Shown here: in pieces, positions 11,339-28,205 of the stretch | How positions within the stretch are numbered: the stretch's first letter is position 1 | Layout: each line of letters begins with the position of its first letter | Assembly (NCBI GenBank): GCA_031296215.1 | Contig: JARLGE010000009.1 | Span: forward strand, 1 to 34,611 | Source: Occallatibacter sp. | GTDB lineage: Bacteria > Acidobacteriota > Terriglobia > Terriglobales > Acidobacteriaceae | Direction of reading: 5' to 3' | Length of the DNA stretch: 34,611 nucleotides | Made by a program: the position numbers and the translations under genes | Notes under the pieces: generated by a model | The model's database searches: none | Seen by the model: only the letters and a program-made list of their open reading frames with translations | Told to the model about the DNA's origin: nothing

Positions 11339-13447
11339 GTGAAAGAGTCCGCAGCGCAAGAAACGATGCCAACCCCTGAATACTTCGCGGACTTTGCCTC
11401 GTCTTATAGCGAAGAGATCGATCAACTTCTGCGTCCCTTTCATGAGCGAGTCAATGAAGCGGTTCAAGATTTTGTCGACACCTTCTACGCTCACCTAAGC
11501 AACCGGGCCGAAAGCTCGGCGATTCTGGCTCGATTGAATCCGGAAGAGCTCAAGCATCTCAAATCGAGGCAGGCGCAACATTTGCATTTTCTTCTGGCAG
11601 CCGGAACAACGCCGCAAGAGCATTTCAAACGAGCGCTTCTGGTGGGGTGGGCACACACATTGGTGGGCGTGAGCCTCCCCATGATGATGGAGGCGTATCA
11701 CCTGTATCACCGGAAAATAAAGCAATTCCTGGAATTCGCGGGTGTGGAAATCCAACAGCGGGAACGGCTAGGCGGGGCGCTCGACCAGCGTTTGCAGCTT
11801 GACATCGAGGCGCAGATTGTTAGTTACGTCCAATTCGAGGCATCGGTTGCATCGCACCTCACGGCTCTGGACGAAGCCATTCAGGAAGTGAACAACCTTG
11901 CCGATGTGTTGCGTCACGGTCTGCATGCGGTGGGAAGTTTCGACGGCATCCTGGCCTGTCTGTTCTTACGGCCCGACGCCCAGGGGCTCATGCAAATCGA
12001 GGCCGAGGGCGGGCAGGAAGGTCAGGCCTATGCCGAAGCGCTGCAAACGCAGCGCGCGCCTTTGTTCCAGATTCAAAAAGAAGCGAAAGCGGGAAGGGGG
12101 CCCGCGGGACGCGCCTGGCGCACAGGACAGATCCAGATCAACAGCTCCTATGAAAAAGAAGAGAGGATGGACCCCTGGCGCGAGGAAGCCAAGATGCGCG
12201 GGTTTCGCTCTTCGGCAGCGGTCCCTTTGCTCGATGAGTCCGGACAGGTCTTTGCCATCTTGAGCCTCTACAGCGGCTGGGCGGGATTCTTCGGCGCGGC
12301 CTCTCGCAAGGCCATGCTCCAGCACATCCAACAGGCAATGAGCCATGCCGTCTTGCGCAGTGAGCGAACAACGGTCATCTCCACAGCTCTGCGCCGGACC
12401 TATCTGCAATGTCTCGATCACGGGGCGGTACAGATGCTGTATCAGCCCATCGTCGACCTGCGCACGGGCAAGCTCGATAGTATCGAGGCTCTGGCGCGAT
12501 TGTCCTGCCCAGGACAATCGCTGATCGAGCCGGCAGCATTTTTGCCGGCGTTTGGCGACGCCGCCTTGCTGCGCCTGTTCCAACTCGGCCTGGACCAGGT
12601 CTGCCTGGACACGCGGATGTGGCGGGAGCAGAACCCGCAACTGAAACTTCCCGTGGGGCTCAATCTCCCGCCCAACGGGCTCACCCAAGAAGCCTACCGG
12701 GATAGTGTTTTTGAGGTCTTGACCCGTTGGGAACTGCCCGCCAGCATCTTGAAGTTGGAGATGTTGGAGACCAAGGAGTCGCTCGACATTGCCAAGCGCG
12801 ATTTGCGCATTGCGGAGTTTCGCCAGGCGGGCATCCAGATTGAGCAGGACGATCTGGGTTCCGGCTATAGTTCACTGCTGCGCATGGACCAGGTTCCATG
12901 CGATCGCGTGAAGATCGATCAAGCTTTGTTGCGCAGCACGCTCAACAGGCCGGTTCGAGCCCTGGTATTCATCTACCACCTGACCATGCTGGCGCACGAT
13001 TGCGGCGTTCAGGTGACAGTGGAGGGTCTGGACGACGATGGCCTGATCGAGGCTGCCGCAATCCTGGACGCGGATCATGGACAGGGCTATGCCATAGCCC
13101 ACCCGATGCCTGTTCAGGAAGTAATGCCCTGGAACCAGGCATGGTCGTTGCCGATCGATCCAGCGCGGCCCCGCACCGCCCTGGGCGCCTTGGCGGGTTA
13201 TCTGCTCTGGGATCGCAAACTTGCGATGCTGACGGATTCGCCCGATCGCGCGGCGGACTTCATCAAGGAGCCAAGCCTGGTCCATCGCTATCTGGATCAC
13301 CCTGGAAAATTCGACTCCAACCTGTCCATGATTCTGGAGCGCACTCAAATCGTTGCCTTGCGGGGGCAGAAAAGCCTCAAGTACACCCAATTGCGCCAGG
13401 AACTCATCGAACAGCTCAGCGCGACCTGGTTGCAGGAGAGAAACTGA
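11339..13447 (+). CDS. Globin-coupled GAF-EAL cyclic-di-GMP phosphodiesterase
   Basis: A 702-residue cytoplasmic sensor enzyme. Residues about 15-130 resemble a globin-coupled-sensor domain: LNPEELKHLKSRQAQHLHFL, then VGWAHTLVGVSLPMMMEAYH, with His106 in the position of the proximal haem ligand. Residues about 190-340 look like a GAF domain (AAVPLLDESGQVFAILSLYS). The EAL phosphodiesterase domain spans about 365-600: Glu383 in IEALARL, NLPPNGL, LEMLETKE, Asp504-Asp505 in QDDLGSGYSSL, KIDQALL, Glu562 in VTVEGLDDD, and GQGYAIAHPMP. The catalytic acids and lysine appear present, so activity is likely. No GGDEF domain is seen. A C-terminal helical region of about 100 residues is not recognised. 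It should hydrolyse c-di-GMP in response to O2, NO or a similar ligand (inference). The start is GTG with GAGGAA upstream. Confidence 0.82.
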   Translation: MKESAAQETMPTPEYFADFASSYSEEIDQLLRPFHERVNEAVQDFVDTFYAHLSNRAESSAILARLNPEELKHLKSRQAQHLHFLLAAGTTPQEHFKRALLVGWAHTLVGVSLPMMMEAYHLYHRKIKQFLEFAGVEIQQRERLGGALDQRLQLDIEAQIVSYVQFEASVASHLTALDEAIQEVNNLADVLRHGLHAVGSFDGILACLFLRPDAQGLMQIEAEGGQEGQAYAEALQTQRAPLFQIQKEAKAGRGPAGRAWRTGQIQINSSYEKEERMDPWREEAKMRGFRSSAAVPLLDESGQVFAILSLYSGWAGFFGAASRKAMLQHIQQAMSHAVLRSERTTVISTALRRTYLQCLDHGAVQMLYQPIVDLRTGKLDSIEALARLSCPGQSLIEPAAFLPAFGDAALLRLFQLGLDQVCLDTRMWREQNPQLKLPVGLNLPPNGLTQEAYRDSVFEVLTRWELPASILKLEMLETKESLDIAKRDLRIAEFRQAGIQIEQDDLGSGYSSLLRMDQVPCDRVKIDQALLRSTLNRPVRALVFIYHLTMLAHDCGVQVTVEGLDDDGLIEAAAILDADHGQGYAIAHPMPVQEVMPWNQAWSLPIDPARPRTALGALAGYLLWDRKLAMLTDSPDRAADFIKEPSLVHRYLDHPGKFDSNLSMILERTQIVALRGQKSLKYTQLRQELIEQLSATWLQERN

Positions 13448-16808: not shown

Positions 16809-18674
16809 CTAGTTTGCCGGGGTCAGGTCCCTGGCCCTGGCGCGCTCGGCGGCAGCATCAATGGCGCGGCCCTGGCGATCGTAGGCGACGGCCAGCTGGT
16901 TGTGGGGGTCGGCGAAGGTGGGATCGGCGGCGATGGCTTCCTGGTAGCGGGCGACGGCGTCGGCGATCTGCCCCTTGAGGAGGAGTTGATTGCCGGCATT
17001 CATGGCGAAGCTGGCTTTTTGTCGGCTGACGGCGCCGCGGGCCAGATCGGCGGCCTGGCGGCGGTATTCGGCGGCCTGGGCGCGGAGGTCTTTGACCTGG
17101 GCACGGAGCTGATCGGCCCTGGCCTGGTCGCCGGCGGCTTCTGCGGCGTCGGCGGCCGCGGTGTCTGCGCCGGCCTGCTCGGCGAGCACGCCGGCCAGCG
17201 TGACGCGGGGGCCGGGCTGGCCGGGAAGCAGCGGAATGGCCTTCTCCAGGGCCTGGCGGGCTTCGTCGAGACGGGAGTCCTGCTTGAGCGTGCTGCCCAG
17301 AATAGCCCACGCGTCGCCGTTGTCCGGGCGCAGGGCGACGGCTTTGCTGAGCTCGACAACCGCTTCGTCGAGACGGCCGATCTGCATGAAGAGAATGCCG
17401 AGGGTGTAGGGCGGGTCCTGGAGGGTGGGGTCGATCTGGCCGGCGCGGGTGAGTTCGGCGATGGCGTCGTCGACGCGATCTTTGAACTTGTATGCCATGC
17501 CCAGGTCGTAGTGAAGCTGAGAATCGTTGGGGTCGAGAGCAAGTGCGGCGTTGAAGTCGGCGATGGCCTCGTCGAAGTTGGAGAGTTGCACGTGGGCAAC
17601 GCCCTTGTCCTTCAAGACTGTGGCGTCGGGCGGGGCGGCGGCCAGGGCCTGCTGAAAGTAGGCGAGGCCGTCCTTGGCCTTGCCGGTGAGGGTGAGGGCG
17701 AGGCCGAGGTTGATCATGGCGCTCACGTTGCGGGGCTCGCGCTGAAGGGCCTGTTGGAACCAGGGAATGGCCTCCTGCTGGCGGCCGAGGCGCTGCAGGG
17801 CCATGGCCAGTTCGTTTTGCGCGCCGGGCAGGTTGGGGTTGAGCTGGATGGCCTGTTCGAGGGGTGGGACGGCGGCATCGTCCTGGCCGGCGGCCTCGAG
17901 GGTGCGGCCGTACTCGGACTGGGCCAGGGCGTTGGAGGGGGCGAGGGTGACGGCGGCTTGGAGAGAAGCCAGCGCGGCGTCGAGGTCGCGCTGCTGGCGC
18001 TGGACAATGCCGAGATGGATGCGGGCGGGGAGATAGGAGCTGTCGATGGAAAGCGCGCGCTCGAACTGGGGCTCGGCCTGCGCCCAGTTGGAGGATTGGG
18101 CGTAAAGGGAGCCGATGGCGTCGAAGACATCCGCTGTGGCTGCGCCGCGGTCTACGGCGGCTTGAAAGAGCTGGATGGCCTGGGCGGGATTGCCGGCGGC
18201 GGTGAGGGCGCGGGCATAGGCCTGGCAGAATGCGACGTCGACGGGCTGGGCGCCGGGCTGCTGCGAGGCCTGGTAGACGGCGCTGAACCGGAGGACGGCC
18301 TTGGCCGGCTCGCCTGCCGCGGCCAGGGCAACCGCGAGGTTGGATTGAAAGCCCCGATCGCCGGGCTTCTGCTTGAGCGCGAGTTCCAACTGCGGCAGGG
18401 CCTGGGCGGGCTTGTCCAGTTCGAGGAGGACTTCGCCCAGGGCTTCGTGGCCCTCGGGGATGGAGGGCGCCAGGCGGACCGCCTCGGCAAACTGCGCGCG
18501 GGCCGCTTCCAAATGGCCAGCCTGGCGCGCCGCATAGCCGGCGCGAAAGGCTGCGCTGGCCCTGGCGATGGCTGCAGCCTCGGGTGGCTTCGACGCCTGG
18601 GCCGGGAGCAGGCCGGGCGAAGCCGCCAGGGTTCCGATTTGAAGCAGAAGCAGAAGGGCGCGGCGCGAGGGCAT
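16809..18674 (-). CDS. Secreted tetratricopeptide-repeat protein
   Basis: A 621-residue protein with a signal peptide (RALLLLLQIGTLAASPGLLPAQA) followed by an almost unbroken series of 34-residue TPR units: PEGHEALGEVLLELDKPAQA, then LAVALAAAGEPAKAV, INLGLALTLTGKAKDGLAYF, YDLGMAYKFKDRVDDAIAEL and AWAILGSTLKQDSRLDEARQ, among others. Near residues 490-550 an Ala/Asp/Arg-rich helical stretch interrupts the repeats; a last unit follows (NQLLLKGQIADAVARYQEAI). TPR solenoids bind partner proteins, so a periplasmic scaffold role is expected, but no partner is proven. It starts 3 bp after the stop of the preceding TPR gene, so the two form an operon. Confidence 0.88.
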   Translation of the reverse strand: MPSRRALLLLLQIGTLAASPGLLPAQASKPPEAAAIARASAAFRAGYAARQAGHLEAARAQFAEAVRLAPSIPEGHEALGEVLLELDKPAQALPQLELALKQKPGDRGFQSNLAVALAAAGEPAKAVLRFSAVYQASQQPGAQPVDVAFCQAYARALTAAGNPAQAIQLFQAAVDRGAATADVFDAIGSLYAQSSNWAQAEPQFERALSIDSSYLPARIHLGIVQRQQRDLDAALASLQAAVTLAPSNALAQSEYGRTLEAAGQDDAAVPPLEQAIQLNPNLPGAQNELAMALQRLGRQQEAIPWFQQALQREPRNVSAMINLGLALTLTGKAKDGLAYFQQALAAAPPDATVLKDKGVAHVQLSNFDEAIADFNAALALDPNDSQLHYDLGMAYKFKDRVDDAIAELTRAGQIDPTLQDPPYTLGILFMQIGRLDEAVVELSKAVALRPDNGDAWAILGSTLKQDSRLDEARQALEKAIPLLPGQPGPRVTLAGVLAEQAGADTAAADAAEAAGDQARADQLRAQVKDLRAQAAEYRRQAADLARGAVSRQKASFAMNAGNQLLLKGQIADAVARYQEAIAADPTFADPHNQLAVAYDRQGRAIDAAAERARARDLTPAN

Positions 18675-18677
18675 GGG

Positions 18678-19733
18678 CTACTTTCCCGCGGGCTTGGGAT
18701 TGTTTTGGCGCTGAATGTCGACCACGGTCTTGAACTCGCGGTTGGCCTCGGCGAGCTGGCCGGTTGCCTTGTACGCCTTGCCCAGCAGGTTGTGGGTGAT
18801 GTAGTTGGACGGGTCCATATTTTCGGCTCGATCGAGGTAGTGGAGGGCCTGGATGGGCTGGTTGAGGTTGAGAAAGGTCTCTCCGAGCAGGATGTAGGGG
18901 CCCGTGGCGCTGGGTTCCAGCAGCACGGCGCGATCCAGGGCCTGCCGGGCCTCGTCCCATTGCCCGTTGCGCAGGTAGGCGTCGCCCAGCCGGTCATAGA
19001 GGACGCCGTTGAGCGGATTGAGCGTGCGCTCCGCTTCCAGCTCGCGAATGGCCGCTGGCAGGTCGCCGCGGGCTAGCGCCGCCTCGCCCAGAAGCTGGTG
19101 GGCGAGGGGCAGCGTGGGGTTGAGCGCGAGCGCCTTGCCTGCCTCGCCGGCGGCCTCGGCAACCAGCTCGCGGCGCAGAAAGAGGCGGGCGGCCAGCAGG
19201 TGGCTTTCGGGGGAGTCGGGCTGAAAGCCGTATTGCGCGGCAAAGGCGCGGCGGGCATCGTCGTAGCGCTTGACATCGGAGTAGCACAGGCCCAGCACAT
19301 ACTTCGGCTCGAGATTCGCTTCCTTCACCGGCGCCAGGTCTGCCGCCTCCAGCAGCGGAATCGCGTCTTGAGGCCTGCCCAGCCGATAGAGCGTCACTCC
19401 CAGCATCTCCACCGCTTCGCGGTCGGTTGCATCCTGGCTGACCGCGCCGGCCAGCGCTTTGGCGGCTTCTCCGAGCTGATCCTTCTGGTAGAAGATCATC
19501 CCCCGCAGCCGCTCCACGCCGGCAGGTTCGGGAGTTTGTGCGGCAAGCGCGTCCAGCATCGCCAGGGCCTGGGCGAGACGGCCTTTTGCTGCCAGACTCT
19601 GGGCTGTCTCAAAGGGAGTGGGGGCAGTCTGGGCCGTTTCGCCGGCCGGCTGGGTATTGCTCCGCGGGGCCTGGGCCGGTGCGGCCAGGACCAGAAATAC
19701 GGCCAGAAATGCGGGAAGAAGAGTACGCAGCAT
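18678..19733 (-). CDS. Secreted tetratricopeptide-repeat protein, first of a tandem pair
   Basis: A 351-residue protein with a signal peptide (MLRTLLPAFLAVFLVLAAPAQA) and TPR units through the rest: ALAMLDALAAQTPEPAGVER, VEMLGVTLYRLGRPQDAIPL, YVLGLCYSDVKRYDDARRAF, DRLGDAYLRNGQWDEARQAL, ILLGETFLNLNQPIQALHYL and HNLLGKAYKATGQLAEANRE. It is immediately followed by a second, longer TPR gene. Both lie downstream of the TonB-dependent receptor, from which a terminator at 19805-19837 separates them, so they probably have their own promoter within about 130 bp; none was clear. Role inferred: periplasmic or outer-membrane-associated scaffold. Confidence 0.88.
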   Translation of the reverse strand: MLRTLLPAFLAVFLVLAAPAQAPRSNTQPAGETAQTAPTPFETAQSLAAKGRLAQALAMLDALAAQTPEPAGVERLRGMIFYQKDQLGEAAKALAGAVSQDATDREAVEMLGVTLYRLGRPQDAIPLLEAADLAPVKEANLEPKYVLGLCYSDVKRYDDARRAFAAQYGFQPDSPESHLLAARLFLRRELVAEAAGEAGKALALNPTLPLAHQLLGEAALARGDLPAAIRELEAERTLNPLNGVLYDRLGDAYLRNGQWDEARQALDRAVLLEPSATGPYILLGETFLNLNQPIQALHYLDRAENMDPSNYITHNLLGKAYKATGQLAEANREFKTVVDIQRQNNPKPAGK

Positions 19734-19804
19734 GGGAAAAACCTATCTAGCAGTGTAATTCCTGGATGGCGTTCTGCTTCGAACTTCGAAGAGAGAAGGC
19801 GGGG

Positions 19805-19837
19805 CTAAACGAAAGAGGGGAGCCGAAGCTCCCCTCT
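19805..19837 (-). terminator. UUCG-loop terminator after the TonB-dependent receptor gene
   Basis: On the minus strand AGAGGGGAGC-TTCG-GCTCCCCTCT forms a perfect 10-bp stem with a UUCG tetraloop (19814-19837), followed by TTCGTTT. It lies 26 bases after the receptor stop codon at 19864. Confidence 0.85.
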
Positions 19838-19863
19838 CTGTTTGTTGCGGCTCCTCTGCGCAA

Positions 19864-22800
19864 TTAGAACCTTGCTGACAGTGAGAACTCCAGCTGACGG
19901 GGCCCCGGTCCAGGCGCCTGGCCGCTGATGTCGTAGATCGGTCCGCCGCCGCCGGAATAAACGTCACCGCCGCTCGGGTTACCCGGGTTGATGTGGTTGA
20001 ACGCGTTCTGTGCATCGACGCGGAACTTGACAGACGCACGCTCCGTGATCGCGAAGCTCTTTTGCAGCGAGAGATCCGAATTCCAGAAGTGCGGTCCAAA
20101 GTAGCTGTTGCGCTTGAGGTTGCCGATGGTGTCCAGACCCGCATCCGTGAACATACCCGCCGGCGCGGTATTGTAGAATCCCGACGTAATGGTACCGCCA
20201 GCGTTACTTTTGGTATGGAGCCCGGTTCCCAGCGTTCCACTGGCGTTAGGCTGGCATGGTGCGTCGCCCGGGATGCCGGCGCAGCCGACCCCTATCGAGA
20301 AGGGCAGGCCGCTGGAGAGGTTTGCGGTCCCAGAGATCTCAAATCCACCAATGATCAGATCCTCGATGTGATTTGCGCTGTTGAGGAATTCCTTGCCCTT
20401 GCCTATCGGAAGCGCGTAGCTGCCGTAGGCCGTCGCCGCCTGGTGGCGAACATTGCCGTCGTTTCCGTAGACCGCCGATTTGCTCCATGTGGAGAAGTTG
20501 CCGGCGAAGTCGGTGGCCGTTGCCCACTGGTAATTGCCGTTCACGTTGAGGCCGTGCCAGGTGGACTGAGCGAGGGTGATTTGCAGAGAGTTGAAGTGGG
20601 TGTTCTGGTCATCGCCCAAGTAGCTGATGCCTTGAGACCAACCGCAAGCACCAGGGAGCAGATTTGGGTCGCCGGTGGGCTGCTGGTAGACCGGATCCTG
20701 GCAGGCCTTCAACGTGCCGCCATAAAACCGCTGCAGGTAAAGTTGGTTTGAGGTAGCGCCCGAGGCATCCGGGGTGCTGGGAGCGCTCGGATCGTAGTGC
20801 AGTGCCTGTCCATTGATGCTGTATTTCGCAGGCAGGTTGATAGCGGATTCATTCGGGTTGGTGCCGTTGCCATCGCCATCGCTCAAGGTGTGCGTGCCTT
20901 TGTTTCCAACGTAGGCCACGGTGAGGGTCAGGCTGGGAGTGAGGGCGCGCTGCGCGCTGAAGTTCCAGGCGTCGAGCGTGGGGAATTGCAGCGGGTTGGG
21001 ACGCGCCTTGGTGTTGACCTGGCTGCCAGGATTCGGCAACAGGCCGTTTCCAGGCACGATCGGCGCCACATTGGCATAGGGAATCGGTCCACCGCCCGCG
21101 GGTTGGGCCGAAGCGTTAGTGTCATTGGCTGGGTTGCAACCGGGGTTATCGGCCGGGCTGCCAAGGCAGAAGGCCTGGCCGGTCGTGCTCGAGTTACTGA
21201 TGCTCTGGTTGGCGAGGACGGGTAGGTTCTGCGTGACGGTGTGTCCGAAGATGGAACCAAAGACGCCGATGTCAAAGCTGCGTCCGTAACCGGCGCGGAG
21301 GACGGTCTTGGGGGTGAGCTGGTAGGTGGCGCCCAGACGAGGCGCGAATTGCTTCTTCTTGTCCAGTTGCCAGCCCATGTTGGACTTGATGCCGCCAAAC
21401 CCTGCAACGTGCAGGTAGCCGTCGGCCATGTTCATCAGCGCGCCATTGCCCGGGCCGTTGACGGACTCCGGGAAGTAGAGTTCCCAGCGGGCGCCCAGGT
21501 TGAGGGTGAGCTTGTTGTTGAGGCGCCAAGTGTCCTGCACATAGAAGAACTCGCGCTTCTGGAACTCCTTGGCGTTGGTGGAGGCGGAGACGTAGCGGTT
21601 GAAGCTGGTCACGTCGCCCAGCGCCAAAGTGGCGAAGCCAATGCCGCCGAATTTGTCGATGTTGTCTGCCGTTGGGGCAGTGCCGAAGTTCAGCAGGCCG
21701 GTACGATCGTTGTCAGAAGGCACGCGGAGATTGCGTCCGTAGCGCAGGTCGGCGCCCAGCTTGATGGCGTGGTTGCCGATGGTCTTGGTCCAGTTGTTGA
21801 CGACCTGGAACTGGTCTTCGCGCTCGGTGAGGGGGCAATTGCAGCGGGCAACGTTGAGGCCGTCGCCGTAGACCGGCTGGGTGCTGCCGCCATAAAGGGT
21901 AGAGATAAAGAACCCAGGCGAACCGCCGGTGATTGGCTGTGCGGTATTCAGGCCCGGGATGCCGAGGTTATTGGCTTCCTGGACCGATTCGTCGTTCTTG
22001 ATGTCGATGATGTTGTAGCGCAGGTAGCCAAGGCGCACGTCGGTGATCAGCGTGGGGTTGAAGACGTAGTCGGTGCCGATGGCCAGGCTGTCGTCGGCAC
22101 TGGTGGAGTTGCCGCCGTAGCCGCCGATGCCGAAGCCGCCGCCGCCAGCCGCACCGTACATCTGGGGTCCGCCGAGAGCATCGGTCCAGCGCGTGAAGCG
22201 GACGAAACCGGTCTGCTTGTCGCTGAAGGTCTGATCGAGGCGGGCGACCCACATGTTGCTGTTGAAGACGCCCGTGCCGCTTTCATGCGAGTTGGAATCC
22301 AGGCCACTGAGGCCGCCGCCGGATTCCTGCCCGACGTAGGGCTGGAGCAGCGTGAGCAGGTTGAGCCACTGCTGGGAGACCTGCGCCATCGGAATAACGT
22401 TGCCGGGGTATGGAAGAGGTGCGCCGCTCTCAGTGGTAGGAGCGCCGATCGAATTGTTGAATATCTTGCCCTCGGGATTGCCGTCGGAGTTGCTGGGCAG
22501 GTTGGCCAGGTACTCGCTGAAGTCGCAACCTGGGATGCCGCTCGGACCGGTTGTTTTGCCGAGGCAGGTGTTGGTGAGAAGCGGTGAGGGAAGTGTGTCG
22601 GTGTCAGTGACGCCTGACTTCTGGCGCTGACCTTCATAGCCGAAGAAGAAGAACCGTTGATCTTTCTTGAGCGGTCCGCCGATGGTGCCGCCGAACTTGT
22701 TCAACAAGCCGGCAGGGAGTGGGCCGGGGGCCTGCGAATAGGGAATGCGGGCCAGGTTGGCGTTGCCGGTGCGGAAGTCGTAGGCCGTGCCGTGAATAGC

Positions 22801-23562
22801 ATTGGAGCCGGACTTGGTCTGAACGGTCTGCACGGCGGCGACAGCCTTGCCGATTTCAGCGTCGAAGTTCTGCGTGGTGATCTTGGCTTCAGTGATGGCG
22901 TCGAGCTGCGGGTTAACGACGATGATGCCCAGAATCGGGTCCTGGTTGTCGGTGCCGTCCAACTCGTAGGCCACACCGCCGAAGGCCTGTCCGTCGACCT
23001 GGATCTGGCGGGATGCCTGGGGGTTTTCATCGGCCGCGTGGGACCAGCCTAACAACTGCGCGCCGGGAAGCAGAAGCTGCAGGTTGGCGAAGTTCTGTCC
23101 CTCAATGGGCAGATCTTCCACCTGCTGCGAATCGAAGGTGGCTGCGACGTCGGCGCGGTCGGTCTTCATTAGCGGCTGCGACTCGGCGCTGACTTCGACG
23201 GTGGTCTCTGCGCCGCCCACTTCGAGGGTGGGGTCGATGCGTGGCGCGGTATCGGCCTGGACCACAACGCCCTTGGTCTCGAAGGACTTGAAGCCCTTGT
23301 TCGTCACCTTGAGGTCATAAATGTCTGGCTGGAGGTGGGAGACGGTGTAGTCGCCCGAGCCGTTGGAGATGACGGTCACGACGGTGCCCTTGGCCTCGTC
23401 CTTGACCGCGACCGTTGCGCCTGCGATGGCAGCCCCGGTCTTATCTGTCACGGTGCCGAAGATCGATCCGTAGACCGATTGCGCGGTAGCAGGCACGGTG
23501 ATGAGAAGGCTCGCGCAGACAAAGATAGCCAGCGAGAGGGTGCTACGAAACATCTTGTTCAT
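19864..23562 (-). CDS. Oar-like TonB-dependent outer-membrane receptor
   Basis: A 1232-residue outer-membrane protein. A signal peptide (MNKMFRSTLSLAIFVCASLL, ending ATAQ) precedes a carboxypeptidase-regulatory-like Ig fold (residues about 30-110: GSIFGTVTDKTGAAIAGATV, then GDYTVSHLQPDIYDLKVTNK). The plug domain follows (DSQQVEDLPIEGQNFANLQL, LDGTDNQDPI), then a long beta-barrel ending QLEFSLSARF, with the terminal Phe expected for BAM-dependent assembly. This architecture is typical of the expanded acidobacterial receptor family; substrates are mostly unknown, and oligosaccharides or other bulky ligands are likely. The ATG at 23562 has AGGAG seven to eight bases upstream; the frame is open upstream to 23751 but that part is not conserved. 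A promoter lies at 23755-23783. Confidence 0.92.
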   Translation of the reverse strand: MNKMFRSTLSLAIFVCASLLITVPATAQSVYGSIFGTVTDKTGAAIAGATVAVKDEAKGTVVTVISNGSGDYTVSHLQPDIYDLKVTNKGFKSFETKGVVVQADTAPRIDPTLEVGGAETTVEVSAESQPLMKTDRADVAATFDSQQVEDLPIEGQNFANLQLLLPGAQLLGWSHAADENPQASRQIQVDGQAFGGVAYELDGTDNQDPILGIIVVNPQLDAITEAKITTQNFDAEIGKAVAAVQTVQTKSGSNAIHGTAYDFRTGNANLARIPYSQAPGPLPAGLLNKFGGTIGGPLKKDQRFFFFGYEGQRQKSGVTDTDTLPSPLLTNTCLGKTTGPSGIPGCDFSEYLANLPSNSDGNPEGKIFNNSIGAPTTESGAPLPYPGNVIPMAQVSQQWLNLLTLLQPYVGQESGGGLSGLDSNSHESGTGVFNSNMWVARLDQTFSDKQTGFVRFTRWTDALGGPQMYGAAGGGGFGIGGYGGNSTSADDSLAIGTDYVFNPTLITDVRLGYLRYNIIDIKNDESVQEANNLGIPGLNTAQPITGGSPGFFISTLYGGSTQPVYGDGLNVARCNCPLTEREDQFQVVNNWTKTIGNHAIKLGADLRYGRNLRVPSDNDRTGLLNFGTAPTADNIDKFGGIGFATLALGDVTSFNRYVSASTNAKEFQKREFFYVQDTWRLNNKLTLNLGARWELYFPESVNGPGNGALMNMADGYLHVAGFGGIKSNMGWQLDKKKQFAPRLGATYQLTPKTVLRAGYGRSFDIGVFGSIFGHTVTQNLPVLANQSISNSSTTGQAFCLGSPADNPGCNPANDTNASAQPAGGGPIPYANVAPIVPGNGLLPNPGSQVNTKARPNPLQFPTLDAWNFSAQRALTPSLTLTVAYVGNKGTHTLSDGDGNGTNPNESAINLPAKYSINGQALHYDPSAPSTPDASGATSNQLYLQRFYGGTLKACQDPVYQQPTGDPNLLPGACGWSQGISYLGDDQNTHFNSLQITLAQSTWHGLNVNGNYQWATATDFAGNFSTWSKSAVYGNDGNVRHQAATAYGSYALPIGKGKEFLNSANHIEDLIIGGFEISGTANLSSGLPFSIGVGCAGIPGDAPCQPNASGTLGTGLHTKSNAGGTITSGFYNTAPAGMFTDAGLDTIGNLKRNSYFGPHFWNSDLSLQKSFAITERASVKFRVDAQNAFNHINPGNPSGGDVYSGGGGPIYDISGQAPGPGPRQLEFSLSARF

Positions 23563-23754
23563 GCGGTCTCCTGAAGGTGCTTCTGTTTTTATGTGCGAAC
23601 TGGTGGTAAAGCCACTTGCCGGGCAGGTTGGATCCCGCCGATCGGCATGGAAGGCTCCCCGGCCACAGCGGCAGGTCGAGCTAAATTGCCGGAGAAGCTG
23701 CTCCCCGATCACAATTAGAGGGGGGCTGAAAGGGCGTACTCCGGACCACACGCA

Positions 23755-23783
23755 ACCTTAACAAGGAGAAATCGGCCTGTCAA
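23755..23783 (-). promoter_or_regulatory. Sigma-70-type promoter of the TonB-dependent receptor gene
   Basis: On the minus strand a perfect −35 TTGACA (23778-23783), a 17-bp spacer and TAAGGT (23755-23760) form a good housekeeping promoter. It predicts a leader of about 185 bases before the ATG at 23562, long enough for post-transcriptional control. Confidence 0.65.
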
Positions 23784-23816
23784 CGGCAAAATGCTCAAAA
23801 AAGGAAGATAGGGGGA

Positions 23817-23834
23817 ACGTATCGAAGACGTATC
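23817..23834. repeat. Direct repeat ACGTATC, 11-bp spacing
   Basis: ACGTATC occurs at 23817-23823 and 23828-23834, exactly 11 bp apart, so the copies face the same side of the helix. They lie about 35-50 bp upstream of the receptor −35 box, a typical position for an activator site. Confidence 0.4.
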
Positions 23835-23997
23835 AACTGCTGGAAACCTTTACATATTTGGACAGTTCCGGTCCACAGCCCGGACGGGGCGCTCGTTTCT
23901 GAAGATAACTCCCATAAATAAAGCGATTTACTGAGATTTTCCGAACTCGAAGCGGCCTGTTTCCGGTTCAAGTCTCCCTGTCCGGTGTACGCGGTTT

Positions 23998-24030
23998 ACG
24001 TATTATCGGCACCCCGCCAACGTATTATCG
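23998..24030. repeat. Direct repeat ACGTATTATCG, 22-bp spacing
   Basis: ACGTATTATCG occurs identically at 23998-24008 and 24020-24030, 22 bp apart (two helical turns). It shares the ACGTAT core with the pair at 23817-23834 and lies further upstream of the same promoter. Confidence 0.5.
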
Positions 24031-24320
24031 AGTTCGTTTCATCCTGCCCGATGGACAGGACTTCAAGGCGGAGTTTGGCATGCGGTAAAGCGGTTGTCCG
24101 GGCCTGCTCAAAGGGGGCCTCGACAGGGCCGGCGTCTCGTCCATCCAAGCCGTCTGGAGGATGCGGGCCGCAACCGAAGGGTGAATTGAGACGGGGAGAT
24201 TGTCTGTGCGGTGGCCAGCGGCGCGCGGTTCCTGAGGGATTTTGGAAGATCGCAGCGGGGACGCGGTGCACACCGAGCCAAGAGTGGAGCCCGGCTGGAT
24301 GGCCGCTGCTTGGCGGCGGG

Positions 24321-26219
24321 TCAGCCCTTGGTTGGAAGCCGGGCGAAGTCGTCGGTCTTGAGGATCTTGCCGCCCTCTTCGAGAACGTAGAGGCGGTTGA
24401 CGTCGAGATCCTTCCAGGCGTCAGCGACGCCGGAAGGCCAGCGAATCTCCACCAGGTCGGCCTTCTTTGCGTCGCCCAGGCCGAAGTGGATGCGCAGGTC
24501 GCTGGCCGAGTAGTAGCCGTTGGAGGAGCGGACCGCTTCGATCTGGGCGAGCGGCGAGCCGGGCTTGGTGTTGAGCAAGGGGGAGCCCGTCTGGGCGACG
24601 ACTTTGACGCGGGCGCCGATGCCGGTGCGGTTGGACTTTGTGCCCACGGCGCGGATCTTGATCCAACTGCGGTTGAGGGTTGACTCACAGTGGAGGAGCT
24701 GGGGGCCGGCGTTGATGCAATTGACGACGGCGTCCAGGCGGCCGTCGTTGTCGTAGTCGCCGACGGCAAAGCCGCGGGCCGGCACGGCGGCGGTGATGCC
24801 GCTGCCGCCGAGCAGGCTGACATCTTCAAACTGGCCGTTGCGCAGGTTGCGGTAGAGGTACTTGCGCTCGGCGTAGGCGGCGTCGACCTGGGTTCCGTCG
24901 ACCTCGGGGTAGACGTGGCCGTTGGAGACCAGGATGTCGAGCCAGCCGTCGTTGTCGATGTCGAGAAAGCTGACACCCCAGCCGAGCAGGCGGGTGTTGA
25001 GGCCGAGGCCCGCCTGGTAAGTGCGGTCGTCGAAGGAGCCGTCGCCCAGGTTCAGGTAGAGGGAGTCAGTGTCTCCGGCGAAGTTGGTCTTGACGATGTC
25101 GAGCAGGCCGTCGCGGTTGTAGTCGCCGATGGAGACGCCCATGCCGGCCTGGGGTTTGCCGTCGGGCGAGTAGGCCACGCCGGCCTCGATGGCCTGGTCG
25201 CGGAAGGTGCCGTCTTTCTGGTTGACGTAGTAGGTGGCGGAAGTGGAGTCGTTGGCGACGTAGATGTTGGGCCAGCCGTTGTTGTCGAGGTCGGCGGCGG
25301 CGGCGCTCAAGGCATAGGTGCCCAGCGTGCCGATCATGCCGGCTCTCTGGCTGACGTCGGTGAAGGTGCCGTCGCCGTTGTTGTGGTAGAGCAGGTTCTT
25401 GCCGCCCTCCAGGCCGGGCGGCCCGCAGGCCACCTGGATGCCCTTGTAGGTGCAGTTGGCGTCCTCGGGCAGCGGGGCGGTCTTGACGTCGAAGTCGATG
25501 TAGTTGCCGACAAAAAGATCCAGATGGCCGTCCTTGTCGTAGTCGAGGAAGGTGCAGCCGGAGTTCCAGCGCAGGCGGTCCTGGAGCAGACCGACCGGTT
25601 TGGTGACGTCGGAGAACGTGCCGTTGCCGTTGTTGCGAAAGAGGGCGTTCTGGCCGTAGTAGCTGACGAAGAGGTCGTTCCAGCCGTCGTTGTTGTAGTC
25701 GCCCACGCAGCAGGCTTGCCCCCAGCCGGAACGGGCCAGGCCGGCCTTGAGCGTGACGTCGGTGAAGGTGCCGTCGCGATTGTTTTTGAAGAGGTGGCAG
25801 ATGGGCTCCTGGCCCTTGGGAAAACCCTCCAGACGCCAACCGTTGACGAGGAAGATGTCGACCCAGTCGTCCTGATCGTAGTCGAAAAAAGCAGCGCCGC
25901 AGCCGGTGGTTTCAAGCAGGTATTTGTTGCGATGCTCGCCGCCGAAGATGGTCTTCACGTGGAGGCCGGCTTGCTGCGCAACGTCGACGAACTGGACGCC
26001 GAGGGGCGTGCCGGTGACCGGCGAGGGCTGGCCCTTGGGCGCGGGGCGCGTGGGCGCTTCGTAGGCCTGGCGCGCGCTGACAGCGGGCTTTTGCGGCTGG
26101 GCAGACTGCGGGGCGGCGAGCGCGAGGGCCGGACGCGCCAGACGCAGGACATCTTCGAGGCTGAGGACCAGGGCGGTGCGCGCAAGCGAGCGCAGGAAGC
26201 CACGACGGGTTTGCGACAA
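24321..26219 (-). CDS. TAT-exported CRTAC1/ASPIC-UnbV family FG-GAP repeat protein
   Basis: A 632-residue exported protein. From the proposed TTG start at 26219 the N-terminus carries a twin-arginine signal (TRRGFLRSLARTALVLSLED), so it is probably folded before export. AGGAG lies nine bases upstream; the frame is open further upstream to 26363 without resemblance. The body is a series of FG-GAP/VCBS calcium-binding repeats (D-Y-D-x-D-x-x-x-D-I type: FFDYDQDDWVDIFLVNGW, VGDYNNDGWNDLFVSYYG, FLDIDNDGWLDILVSNGH, VGDYDNDGRLDAVV) that form a beta-propeller. The C-terminus is an ASPIC/UnbV domain (NRTGIGARVKVVAQTG, SSNGYYSASDLRIHFGLGDA, VEIRWPSG). Function in acidobacteria is unknown; ligand binding near the receptor is inferred. 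It lies between the glucosidase and receptor genes, all leftward. Confidence 0.87.
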   Translation of the reverse strand: MSQTRRGFLRSLARTALVLSLEDVLRLARPALALAAPQSAQPQKPAVSARQAYEAPTRPAPKGQPSPVTGTPLGVQFVDVAQQAGLHVKTIFGGEHRNKYLLETTGCGAAFFDYDQDDWVDIFLVNGWRLEGFPKGQEPICHLFKNNRDGTFTDVTLKAGLARSGWGQACCVGDYNNDGWNDLFVSYYGQNALFRNNGNGTFSDVTKPVGLLQDRLRWNSGCTFLDYDKDGHLDLFVGNYIDFDVKTAPLPEDANCTYKGIQVACGPPGLEGGKNLLYHNNGDGTFTDVSQRAGMIGTLGTYALSAAAADLDNNGWPNIYVANDSTSATYYVNQKDGTFRDQAIEAGVAYSPDGKPQAGMGVSIGDYNRDGLLDIVKTNFAGDTDSLYLNLGDGSFDDRTYQAGLGLNTRLLGWGVSFLDIDNDGWLDILVSNGHVYPEVDGTQVDAAYAERKYLYRNLRNGQFEDVSLLGGSGITAAVPARGFAVGDYDNDGRLDAVVNCINAGPQLLHCESTLNRSWIKIRAVGTKSNRTGIGARVKVVAQTGSPLLNTKPGSPLAQIEAVRSSNGYYSASDLRIHFGLGDAKKADLVEIRWPSGVADAWKDLDVNRLYVLEEGGKILKTDDFARLPTKG

Positions 26220-26378
26220 AACTGAAATCTCCTCAGGCGCGCAATCGATCTCGGCAGCAGCGCCTCGAAGGTCGAGTATAGCGGGTAGTGCGATGCGGAT
26301 GCAGCCCGGACACACCCGGCGATTCCCGCGCAAACAGGAACCGCCGGATGAGTCTTGGCGCAATTTACAGAAGGCTGC

Positions 26379-28205
26379 TTACTTGACCTGGCCGATGTAA
26401 ACGCCGAAGGCCGCGAGCTGAATCTGGCCGAGCGAGGCCGGATCGGAGCCGCCGGGCGTCTTGAGCAAGGTCTTCAGTTTGCCCGCAGCGCCCGGCACGG
26501 AGAGCGAGACCGTCTGCGGCTCGGCGGTGAAGTTGACCGAGACGACGATAGAAGGCGCGCCGGCGGCCTGGCGCATCCAGCTCAGCACTTTTGTGTTGGC
26601 GGTATCGAGCATGACGTTGTCGCCGTGGGCAAACGCCGGGTTCGTTTTCTTCAATCGGATCAGCGACTGGTACCAGGCGAAGAGCGAGTTCGGATCGCTC
26701 TCTTCGGCCTTGACATTGACGGTGGTGTACGTGGGCGGGACGGGCAGCCATGGAGCCACTCCGGCCTTGGTGAAGCCGGCGTTGGATCCCGAGTCCCACT
26801 GCATGGGCGTACGCTCGCCGTCGCGGCCCTTGTCCTTGGGCCAACCGGTCAGGCCAACCGGGTCCTTCACGTCTTCCTTGCGCGTGGGCGGCGTGGTTTT
26901 CATGCCGATCTCGTCGCCGTAGTAAAACAGCGCCGTGCCGCGGTTGGCGAACAGCATGGTCGAGATGACGCGCTGAATATCGGCGTCGTGGACGCCGTCG
27001 CCGTAGCGCGCGTCGAGGCGCGGGTTGTCGTGGTTGTCGAAAACCAGCAGCGGAATGTTGCCGTCGATTGCGGTTTCCACGTCGTTCAATTTGGCGCGGA
27101 ACTGGGCCACGTCGAGCTTGTTGATAAAGCCGACCTGCGTGTCCATGGGCAAGTGGAACTCGGGCTTGCCGAGAGGGCCGTACTGCTTGGCCAGCTCGGC
27201 GATGTTGGGCAGGTAGGTTTCGCCGATGAGCACGCGCGTGCCGGGAAACTTTGGCGAGTTGAAGGTGTCGCTGAAGGCGCGGAACTCCTGCATCACCGGA
27301 TGGGTGCCGGGCAGGTTGTTGGTGCGCGTGTCGTTCAAGGCGATGTCGCCGTAATCGTTGCGGTAGGACTTGCCGTCCTTGTCGAGCAGCACGTCCTCGT
27401 CGCGCATCTCGGGGTCTTCAAAGAGGGTGGTGATGGCATCGAAGCGGAACCCGCCCACGCCGCGCTTCAACCAGAAACCCACGATGTCCTTGAAGGCCTC
27501 GTGGATCTTCGGGTTGTCCCAGTTCACGTCGGGCTGCTGGATATAGAACTTGTGGTAGTAGTATTGGCGGGTCTTTTCGTCCCACTCCCATGCCGAATGG
27601 CCGAAGTCGGACTGCCAATTGTTGGGCGGCTCACCTTTGTCGGCCGCGGTCTGGCCCTTGCCATCGTGCCACATGTACCAGTCGCGATAAGGATTCGTGC
27701 GTGAGGAGCGCGACTGGATGAACCACTCGTGCTTGTCGGAAGTGTGGTTCATGACCATGTCCATGAGGATGCGGATATGGCGCTTGTTGGCCTCGGCGAT
27801 GAGGCGGTCGAAGTCGGCCAGGGTGCCGTACTGCGGGTCGATGTTCTTGTAGTCGGAGATGTCGTAGCCGAAGTCAACCTGCGGCGAGGGATAGACGGGA
27901 CTGAGCCAGATGGCGTCCACGCCCAGCTTCTTCAGGTAGTCGAGACGCTGGGTGATGCCGTTCAGGTCGCCGATGCCGTCGCCGTTCGAATCCTGAAAGC
28001 TGCGCGGGTAGATCTCGTAGAGGACGGCGTTCTTCCACCAGTCCTGCTCGGCGGAGTTGGCGGATTGGGCATCCGCATTGGGGAGCGGGTTGGGGGGCGC
28101 ACTTTGGCCCGCTGCCGCAGGCGCCGCAGCTTGCAGCGCCACGATGATGGAACAGCTTGCAATAAAGCTTGTGACGGTTTTCTTTGTGATTGCGGTCCAG
28201 TTCAT
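26379..28205 (-). CDS. Secreted GH13 alpha-glucosidase
   Basis: A 608-residue glycoside hydrolase family 13 enzyme, most like alpha-glucosidase/oligo-1,6-glucosidase, hydrolysing terminal alpha-linked glucose from oligosaccharides. A signal peptide (about residues 1-33, ending APAAAG) predicts export. The TIM-barrel motifs are complete: DMVMNHTSDKHEWF, nucleophile Asp256 in GGFRFDAITTLFEDP, acid/base Glu329 in VLIGETYL, and His392-Asp393 in FDNHDNPR. The early QDSNGDGIGDLNGI loop resembles the calcium-site loop of the family. The C-terminal beta domain is short (about 75 residues). Start ATG 28205 has AAGGAG seven bases upstream; the frame stays open far upstream (to 29525), but that part lies across other genes. 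It heads a leftward set with CRTAC1-type, receptor and TPR genes. Confidence 0.93.
   Translation of the reverse strand: MNWTAITKKTVTSFIASCSIIVALQAAAPAAAGQSAPPNPLPNADAQSANSAEQDWWKNAVLYEIYPRSFQDSNGDGIGDLNGITQRLDYLKKLGVDAIWLSPVYPSPQVDFGYDISDYKNIDPQYGTLADFDRLIAEANKRHIRILMDMVMNHTSDKHEWFIQSRSSRTNPYRDWYMWHDGKGQTAADKGEPPNNWQSDFGHSAWEWDEKTRQYYYHKFYIQQPDVNWDNPKIHEAFKDIVGFWLKRGVGGFRFDAITTLFEDPEMRDEDVLLDKDGKSYRNDYGDIALNDTRTNNLPGTHPVMQEFRAFSDTFNSPKFPGTRVLIGETYLPNIAELAKQYGPLGKPEFHLPMDTQVGFINKLDVAQFRAKLNDVETAIDGNIPLLVFDNHDNPRLDARYGDGVHDADIQRVISTMLFANRGTALFYYGDEIGMKTTPPTRKEDVKDPVGLTGWPKDKGRDGERTPMQWDSGSNAGFTKAGVAPWLPVPPTYTTVNVKAEESDPNSLFAWYQSLIRLKKTNPAFAHGDNVMLDTANTKVLSWMRQAAGAPSIVVSVNFTAEPQTVSLSVPGAAGKLKTLLKTPGGSDPASLGQIQLAAFGVYIGQVK

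Follow-up and report, generated by a model that had tools for sequence, protein, structure and literature searches.

How do Acidobacteriota, which are abundant in soil and encode many TonB-dependent receptors and almost no SusD proteins of family PF07980, bring glycans across the outer membrane? The question is raised by a locus of Occallatibacter sp. (assembly GCA_031296215.1, contig JARLGE010000009.1, positions 1 to 34,611); the whole stretch of 34,611 nucleotides is referred to here as the window. A first-pass annotation had read five leftward genes in the window as a secreted GH13 enzyme, a Tat-type propeller (here CRTAC1-A), a TonB-dependent receptor and two secreted tetratricopeptide-repeat (TPR) proteins (here TPR2 and TPR1), and both the coordinates and the Pfam matches agree with this list. 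A block of receptor, TPR2, TPR1 and CRTAC1-A genes recurs across acidobacteria, often beside starch-type sugar-cutting enzymes, suggesting that the locus is probably a SusD-less sugar-uptake machine. As to its substrate, we lean, with modest confidence, towards a SusD-less outer-membrane uptake locus of Acidobacteriota for alpha-linked glucose oligosaccharides of the maltodextrin, glycogen or trehalose type. Neither a published description of the locus nor an account of acidobacterial glycan uptake was found in the open literature searched.

The receptor, TPR2, TPR1 and CRTAC1-A genes are a real conserved block across genera. Orthologues were sought in 150 genomes of the family, with cut-offs of E 1e-100 for GH13 and E 1e-120 for the receptor; counting the window's own genome, 88 genomes have GH13, 70 the receptor and 61 CRTAC1-A above the cut-off. 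Receptor and CRTAC1-A lie no more than 20 kb apart in 34 of the 51 family genomes that have both (1.4 expected); this and the other co-location counts exclude the genome of the window itself and a receptor fragment (the second piece in G081), and their chance expectations assume 3 Mb genomes. Gene calling at 40 loci, fetched on account of receptor or CRTAC1-A matches (L101–L140), gave the receptor, TPR2, TPR1, CRTAC1-A and often a second CRTAC1 gene, in varying order and sometimes as a partial set. The best 80 of 293 named relatives of the receptor were kept, and nearly all of these belong to Acidobacteriaceae or near kin. In 77 of these 80 loci the receptor scores at least 1000 bits (three loci fall below), and after nine with too little downstream sequence were dropped, 68 had room for TPR2; at 60 of them it immediately follows the receptor, on the same strand, and TPR1 comes directly behind TPR2 at 36 of 57. 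With the 32 loci shorter than 17 kb dropped from the tally, 48 named loci remain, of which 44 contain TPR2, 43 TPR1, 32 CRTAC1-A and 18 GH13; the 48 include duplicate copies in Terriglobus roseus (L209 and L211) and two loci from one strain (L160 and L172, the latter without TPR2). Hosts of the block include Terriglobus roseus, Edaphobacter, Granulicella, Acidipila rosea, Bryocella elongata and Occallatibacter savannae.

The pairing of receptor and CRTAC1-A extends to other families of Acidobacteriota. Across 297 genomes of the phylum the receptor is above the cut-off in 26 and CRTAC1-A in 21, and in all six genomes outside the family that have both (G156, G157, G184, G325, G406 and G421) the two genes lie on one contig within 20 kb. 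Thirteen other-family loci were fetched (L241–L253), some of them short. Five (L242, L244, L245, L246 and L251) combine the receptor with TPR2-like, TPR1-like and CRTAC1 genes, and two (L241 and L247) combine it with TPR2-like and CRTAC1 genes, the TPR assignments resting on low scores (73–204 bits) and so perhaps not marking orthologues. The receptor occurs without CRTAC1 or TPR genes at L250 and L253, and CRTAC1 with TPR1 but no receptor at L249.

Some of the relatives deserve a remark of their own. The T. roseus DSM 18391 genome (NC_018014.1) carries a 23.6-kb stretch twice (L209 and L211), ∼460 kb apart and 99.996% identical; one copy is a single base shorter, with the receptor frame apparently split. 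Either the stretch was duplicated very recently or its second copy is a product of misassembly. One of the 80 records is labelled Verrucomicrobia (L205; CAJCIP010000057.1) and holds an acidobacterial-looking copy of the block, for which a mistake in binning or labelling seems a more likely cause than transfer. A multihaem cytochrome with TPRs is a recurring neighbour of the block, forming a cluster across six loci (for example L108:8881-10608, the member that was scanned).

The enzymes that neighbour the block in relatives point to alpha-glucosides as the substrate, and the PUL-like character (PUL, polysaccharide-utilisation locus) that the first-pass annotation had seen is supported. A protein of ∼880 residues has a profile that best matches an archaeal-type debranching amylo-1,6-glucosidase of solved structure (E 2e-19), and a GH37 trehalase, GH130 and, directly behind CRTAC1-A in the same-genus genome G083, GH31 are also found near the block. 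Among the other families, L244 has a GH13 with a SusG_C domain, a second GH13 and a debranching-type protein, L245 a cyclomaltodextrinase and an MFS transporter, and L242 a MalK-like ATPase; at L250 a debranching-type protein and GH37 lie beside a receptor that lacks the rest of the block. For GH13 itself, the fair test is co-location over genome distance. In this test, 20 of 50 family genomes (16 genera) have GH13 and CRTAC1-A no more than 20 kb apart (1.2 expected), and ten of 57 have GH13 that close to the receptor (1.6 expected).

The GH13 of the window (PF00128, E 4e-130) has as its closest PDB sequences sucrose isomerases, the alpha-glucosyltransferase 6aav and alpha-glucosidases. It contains GFRFDAI, LIGETYLP and FDNHDNPR, which we take to carry the nucleophile Asp, the acid Glu and the stabilizer Asp of the GH13 barrel, and the Ala after the nucleophile, shared with 6aav in the alignment, hints at alpha-1,4 linkages. 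In a tree of 90 GH13 rows, 37 of them near the block, the label 'near the block' changes 12 times, and at least six of these changes are forced by well supported branches; identical rows were merged, rows scored as elsewhere may be mislabelled where they sit on short contigs, and each change may be a gain or a loss. The window's GH13 falls into a group of eight rows (SH-aLRT 100) whose other seven members sit elsewhere. A constant place for GH13 in the locus was thus rejected, since the tree and the same-genus genome G083 (below) place it elsewhere; it is the movable part. That different GH13 lineages repeatedly adjoin the block favours a shared function more than a single inherited order would. 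Conservation of the gene set, on which the first-pass annotation had staked its reading, therefore divides: the receptor, TPR and CRTAC1 genes are unscattered in most relatives having them, and GH13 is not fixed among them.

Several points weigh against alpha-glucoside uptake. The main weakness is that 25 of the 48 named loci have no recognized alpha-glucoside hydrolase in the flank, which leaves the substrate uncertain. Any of four alpha-glucoside hydrolase types occurs at the other 23, compared with one of 20 other receptor loci of the window's own genome (Fisher p 0.0006), a contrast that is partly circular since the types other than GH13 were chosen because they recurred here. GH13 alone occurs at 18 of the 48 and at none of the 20, but the control genome has only one close GH13, so that a zero was almost bound to result and carries no weight as evidence. 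The 20 controls come from one genome, often from short contigs; they were taken outside the contig stretches fetched for UnbV genes, so that CRTAC1 is absent from them by construction, and three of them have no receptor match to the query at E 1e-10. Within the genus, G083 has its GH13 (74% identical) on a contig other than those of CRTAC1-A and the receptor, which themselves lie on two separate contigs, with GH31 directly behind CRTAC1-A; G144 has the GH13 (74%) and, at the cut-offs used, neither receptor nor CRTAC1-A. Of the 20 window ORFs scanned with Pfam, none encodes an inner-membrane sugar transporter or a LacI protein, and propeller lectins are absent from the 50 matches listed in a VIA-align structural comparison of CRTAC1-A, other propellers being present. 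The named loci also overlap with the family genomes, so that the two samples are not independent.

These observations bear on a second reading, in which the block serves acidobacteria as a general uptake module, here for something other than an alpha-glucan, with GH13 an incidental neighbour. The position of GH13 in G083, its place near GH37, a PfkB kinase or DUF2252 in several other relatives, and the 25 loci with no recognized alpha-glucosidase all fit such a module. So do paralogous CRTAC1–receptor–TPR modules in the window's own genome, on C244 (L022), C152 (L024), C96 (L020) and C99 (L023): one contains three consecutive CRTAC1 genes and lies near a gene for a GH38-type C-terminal domain, and another adjoins an MGH1-like hydrolase gene. 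Given these neighbours, the module may be general and the alpha-glucan the version of this orthologue. Against an incidental GH13 stand its co-location with CRTAC1-A well above the chance expectation and the other alpha-glucan enzymes that recur near the block, in other families too; we regard the second reading as possible but rather improbable.

If the locus takes up sugars, which protein stands in for SusD? A SusD encoded elsewhere in the genome was considered and rejected: the assembly (4.17 Mb, 88% complete) yielded no PF07980 match, with a positive Bacteroides control and with other SusD-like Pfam families unsearched, and PF07980 matched only two of 199 Acidobacteriota genomes. The lack of SusD noted by the first-pass annotation is thus borne out for PF07980. 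That annotation had also proposed a TPR protein for the surface role of SusD, and the gene position of TPR2 speaks for this, as susD stands directly downstream of susC. A loose lipobox pattern, however, is present in just two of 65 TPR2 orthologues, five of 61 TPR1 and none of 37 CRTAC1-A orthologues; as 19 of 77 receptors also show it, such hits are noise. The AlphaFold model of TPR2 (pLDDT 91) is a plain TPR superhelix with consensus-TPR proteins and OGT as its best structural matches; SusD is absent from the 50 matches shown, which does not exclude a SusD fold. Beyond the N-terminus, neither Pfam nor the model leaves a segment outside the repeats. The proposal is therefore weakly supported: TPR2 holds the gene position of SusD, but with no consistent lipid anchor and with a plain fold, and it appears unlikely that TPR2 works as SusD, covering the receptor as a lid that binds glycans at the surface. 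We favour periplasmic scaffolds as the role of the TPR proteins. On the whole, the observation of the first-pass annotation was right and its interpretation half right.

The propeller is the likelier handler of glycans. CRTAC1-A has six FG-GAP_3 stretches (PF13517) followed by UnbV_ASPIC (PF07593) in Pfam, and seven DxDxDG-type loops can be counted by eye. Conservation sets in near the GTG at 26222, which is probably the start codon although the ORF extends further upstream. A Tat-like motif is present in 33 of 37 named orthologues. An alignment of 33 sequences has invariant cysteines and histidines and a mean column identity of 67%, by which CRTAC1-A is the most conserved of the four proteins (TPR2 54%, receptor 53%, TPR1 44%), each value being computed on a different sequence set. 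The model (pLDDT 76) has murine CRTAC1 (9etn) as its best fold match, with a Foldseek E of 5e-30 and, in VIA-align, Z 38.5 and a root-mean-square deviation of 2.4 over 454 residues. The next Foldseek matches are propeller lectins of the PVL type, which bind GlcNAc; in VIA-align, CRTAC1 is followed by LGI1, aldos-2-ulose dehydratase and other propellers. Aldos-2-ulose dehydratase is a propeller enzyme that acts on products of alpha-glucan breakdown, and its ranks of 8–10 (Z 28.8, 362 residues), the invariant cysteines and histidines and the Tat-type export might suggest that CRTAC1-A is a sugar-converting enzyme of this kind and not a binder, but ordinary propellers reach Z 25–31 in the same list and there is no sequence match to the dehydratase at E up to 10, making this highly improbable. 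We favour CRTAC1-A, over the TPR proteins, as the glycan binder.

The features of the locus are collected in Table 1. The receptor has the homology expected of an outer-membrane beta-barrel, with Pfam matches to PF25183 (E 2e-158), PF00593 (E 7e-12) and CarboxypepD_reg; the plug domain PF07715 is not among its matches at E 0.001, and a stretch of ∼130 residues between the regulatory domain and the barrel match has no Pfam match at that threshold. Sec-type signal peptides can be recognized by eye in the receptor, TPR1 and TPR2, and TPRs cover nearly the whole length of the last two in Pfam. The source assembly has 40 PF25183 matches, fragments counted. Elsewhere in the window, positions 11339-13447 encode a protoglobin–GAF–EAL protein (Pfam), a possible oxygen-sensing c-di-GMP phosphodiesterase.

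Table 1. Genes and sequence elements of the locus, in window coordinates
Feature	Position	Strand	Description
GH13	26379-28205	minus	Secreted alpha-glucosidase-like protein, 608 aa; Sec-type signal peptide by eye
CRTAC1-A propeller	24321-26222	minus	FG-GAP and UnbV_ASPIC; RRxFL Tat-type N-terminus
TonB-dependent receptor, PF25183 type	19864-23562	minus	1232 aa from ATG; N-terminal carboxypeptidase-regulatory domain
TPR2	18678-19733	minus	Secreted TPR superhelix, 351 aa; directly behind receptor
TPR1	16809-18674	minus	Secreted TPR protein, 621 aa; start 3 bp behind TPR2
TTGACA -35-like element, receptor promoter	23778-23783	minus	Heads inferred leader of ∼185-190 nt
Palindrome TAAAGCGATTTA	23919-23930	no strand	LacI-type operator-like
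UUCG-loop hairpin with T-rich tail	19814-19837	minus	Between receptor and TPR2

The region upstream of the receptor was compared across 67 receptor upstream regions, the window being one of them. TTGACA is present in 66 (shuffle mean 9.3), and all of 19 aligned leaders keep a TA at -10 spacing. The palindrome TAAAGCGATTTA holds AAANCGNTTT, presumably the core of LacI-type operators. The pattern TAAAN4TTTA lies upstream of 20 of the 67 receptors (shuffle mean 1.0), and 17 of the 20 sites lie 350–368 bp upstream, counted from a fixed point close to the start. The sequence TAAANCGNTTTA occurs at two places in the window's own assembly, the second between two genes that, by their sequence, look like murA and a gene for a secreted Ig-like protein, so that no LacI regulon was found. 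A direct repeat, CGATAATACGT, has exact copies at 23998-24008 and 24020-24030, 22 bp apart (0.06 expected by chance); it is not among the 25 commonest words of upstream regions. Cobalamin regulation of the receptor, suggested by a likeness of its ribosome-binding region and of a leader stem to a B12 box, was rejected, as the Rfam cobalamin riboswitch matched none of three leaders at E up to 10 and did not reach the gathering score in the window. RNAalifold gave an 8-pair stem alone for the leader, with a covariation term of -0.37.

Between receptor and TPR2, the hairpin reads GGGGAGC-TTCG-GCTCCCC. Stems of at least eight pairs are found in 54 of 56 such gaps (mononucleotide-shuffle mean 15, largest 22); the base-pair count used hairpins preselected for stems of this length, so that pairing of positions 1–8 is by construction. 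The 18-mer core occurs once in the window and a degenerate 16-mer core once in the assembly. Of 265 loci, 29 contain the exact 18-mer (four of the 29 repeat a place already fetched), always shortly behind this receptor, for example at L148:13653-13670 and L160:13708-13725. The sequence of the hairpin, beyond its mere pairing, is conserved, which exceeds the needs of a terminator; the plain reading is a leaky terminator or processing site.

Compared with the SusCD PULs of Bacteroidota, the locus shares a TonB-dependent receptor with a regulatory domain at its N-terminus, a partner gene that follows the receptor directly, and exported glycoside hydrolases in the surroundings. It differs in that the receptor matches no NCBIfam model at E 0.001, the SusC model included, and is of the PF25183 type instead, in that there is no PF07980 SusD, and in that the partner is a TPR protein with no consistent lipobox and the CRTAC1 propeller is an additional core component. 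By the lipobox pattern, none of TPR2, TPR1 and CRTAC1-A is the lipid-anchored surface glycan-binding partner of a SusCD PUL. Co-located hydrolases for one substrate class, a further PUL trait, are present as GH13 in the window and as recognized enzymes at just under half of the named loci. Proteobacteria have carbohydrate-utilization (CUT) loci with TonB-dependent receptors but no SusD. A SusD-less receptor beside glycoside hydrolases is common to both; the conserved core here, however, is CRTAC1 with two TPR proteins, and inner-membrane transport genes were seen not among the 20 window ORFs scanned but in two other families (the MFS transporter of L245 and the MalK-like ATPase of L242). CRTAC1-A resembles the CRTAC1/ASPIC-UnbV FG-GAP proteins in domain order and fold and departs from them in being bacterial, with a Tat-type N-terminus, and in being tied to receptor and TPR genes. 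A CRTAC1-family gene flanked by hydrazine-synthase-like genes has been described (PMC12758564). There, as here, an FG-GAP protein is the conserved neighbour of a gene cluster; both the cluster and its chemistry differ, and the part of that paper available to us mentions no receptor.

Under the alpha-glucoside uptake reading, the exported GH13 would trim alpha-glucosides at or outside the outer membrane, and the Tat-exported CRTAC1 propeller would bind or present the glycan, which the receptor would import on TonB energy. In the periplasm, TPR2 and TPR1 would scaffold the receptor and its partners. Switching on of the receptor may depend on a LacI-type repressor, and the hairpin may lower TPR levels relative to the receptor.

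As a candidate for an uptake complex that lacks SusD, the block beside alpha-glucan enzymes is concrete and testable, and it suggests a function for bacterial CRTAC1 proteins; cultured named hosts are available in Terriglobus, Edaphobacter, Granulicella, Acidipila and Bryocella. More speculatively, and in our view doubtful as yet, Acidobacteriota may own an unnamed class of glycan uptake, in which a pre-folded, Tat-exported CRTAC1 propeller replaces SusD as the glycan catcher and a TPR superhelix occupies the gene position of SusD. Were this true, the paralogous copies with GH38-type and MGH1-like hydrolases would serve other glycans, and the RNA hairpin, which in this genome is found only behind this receptor, would set the levels of receptor to TPR proteins.

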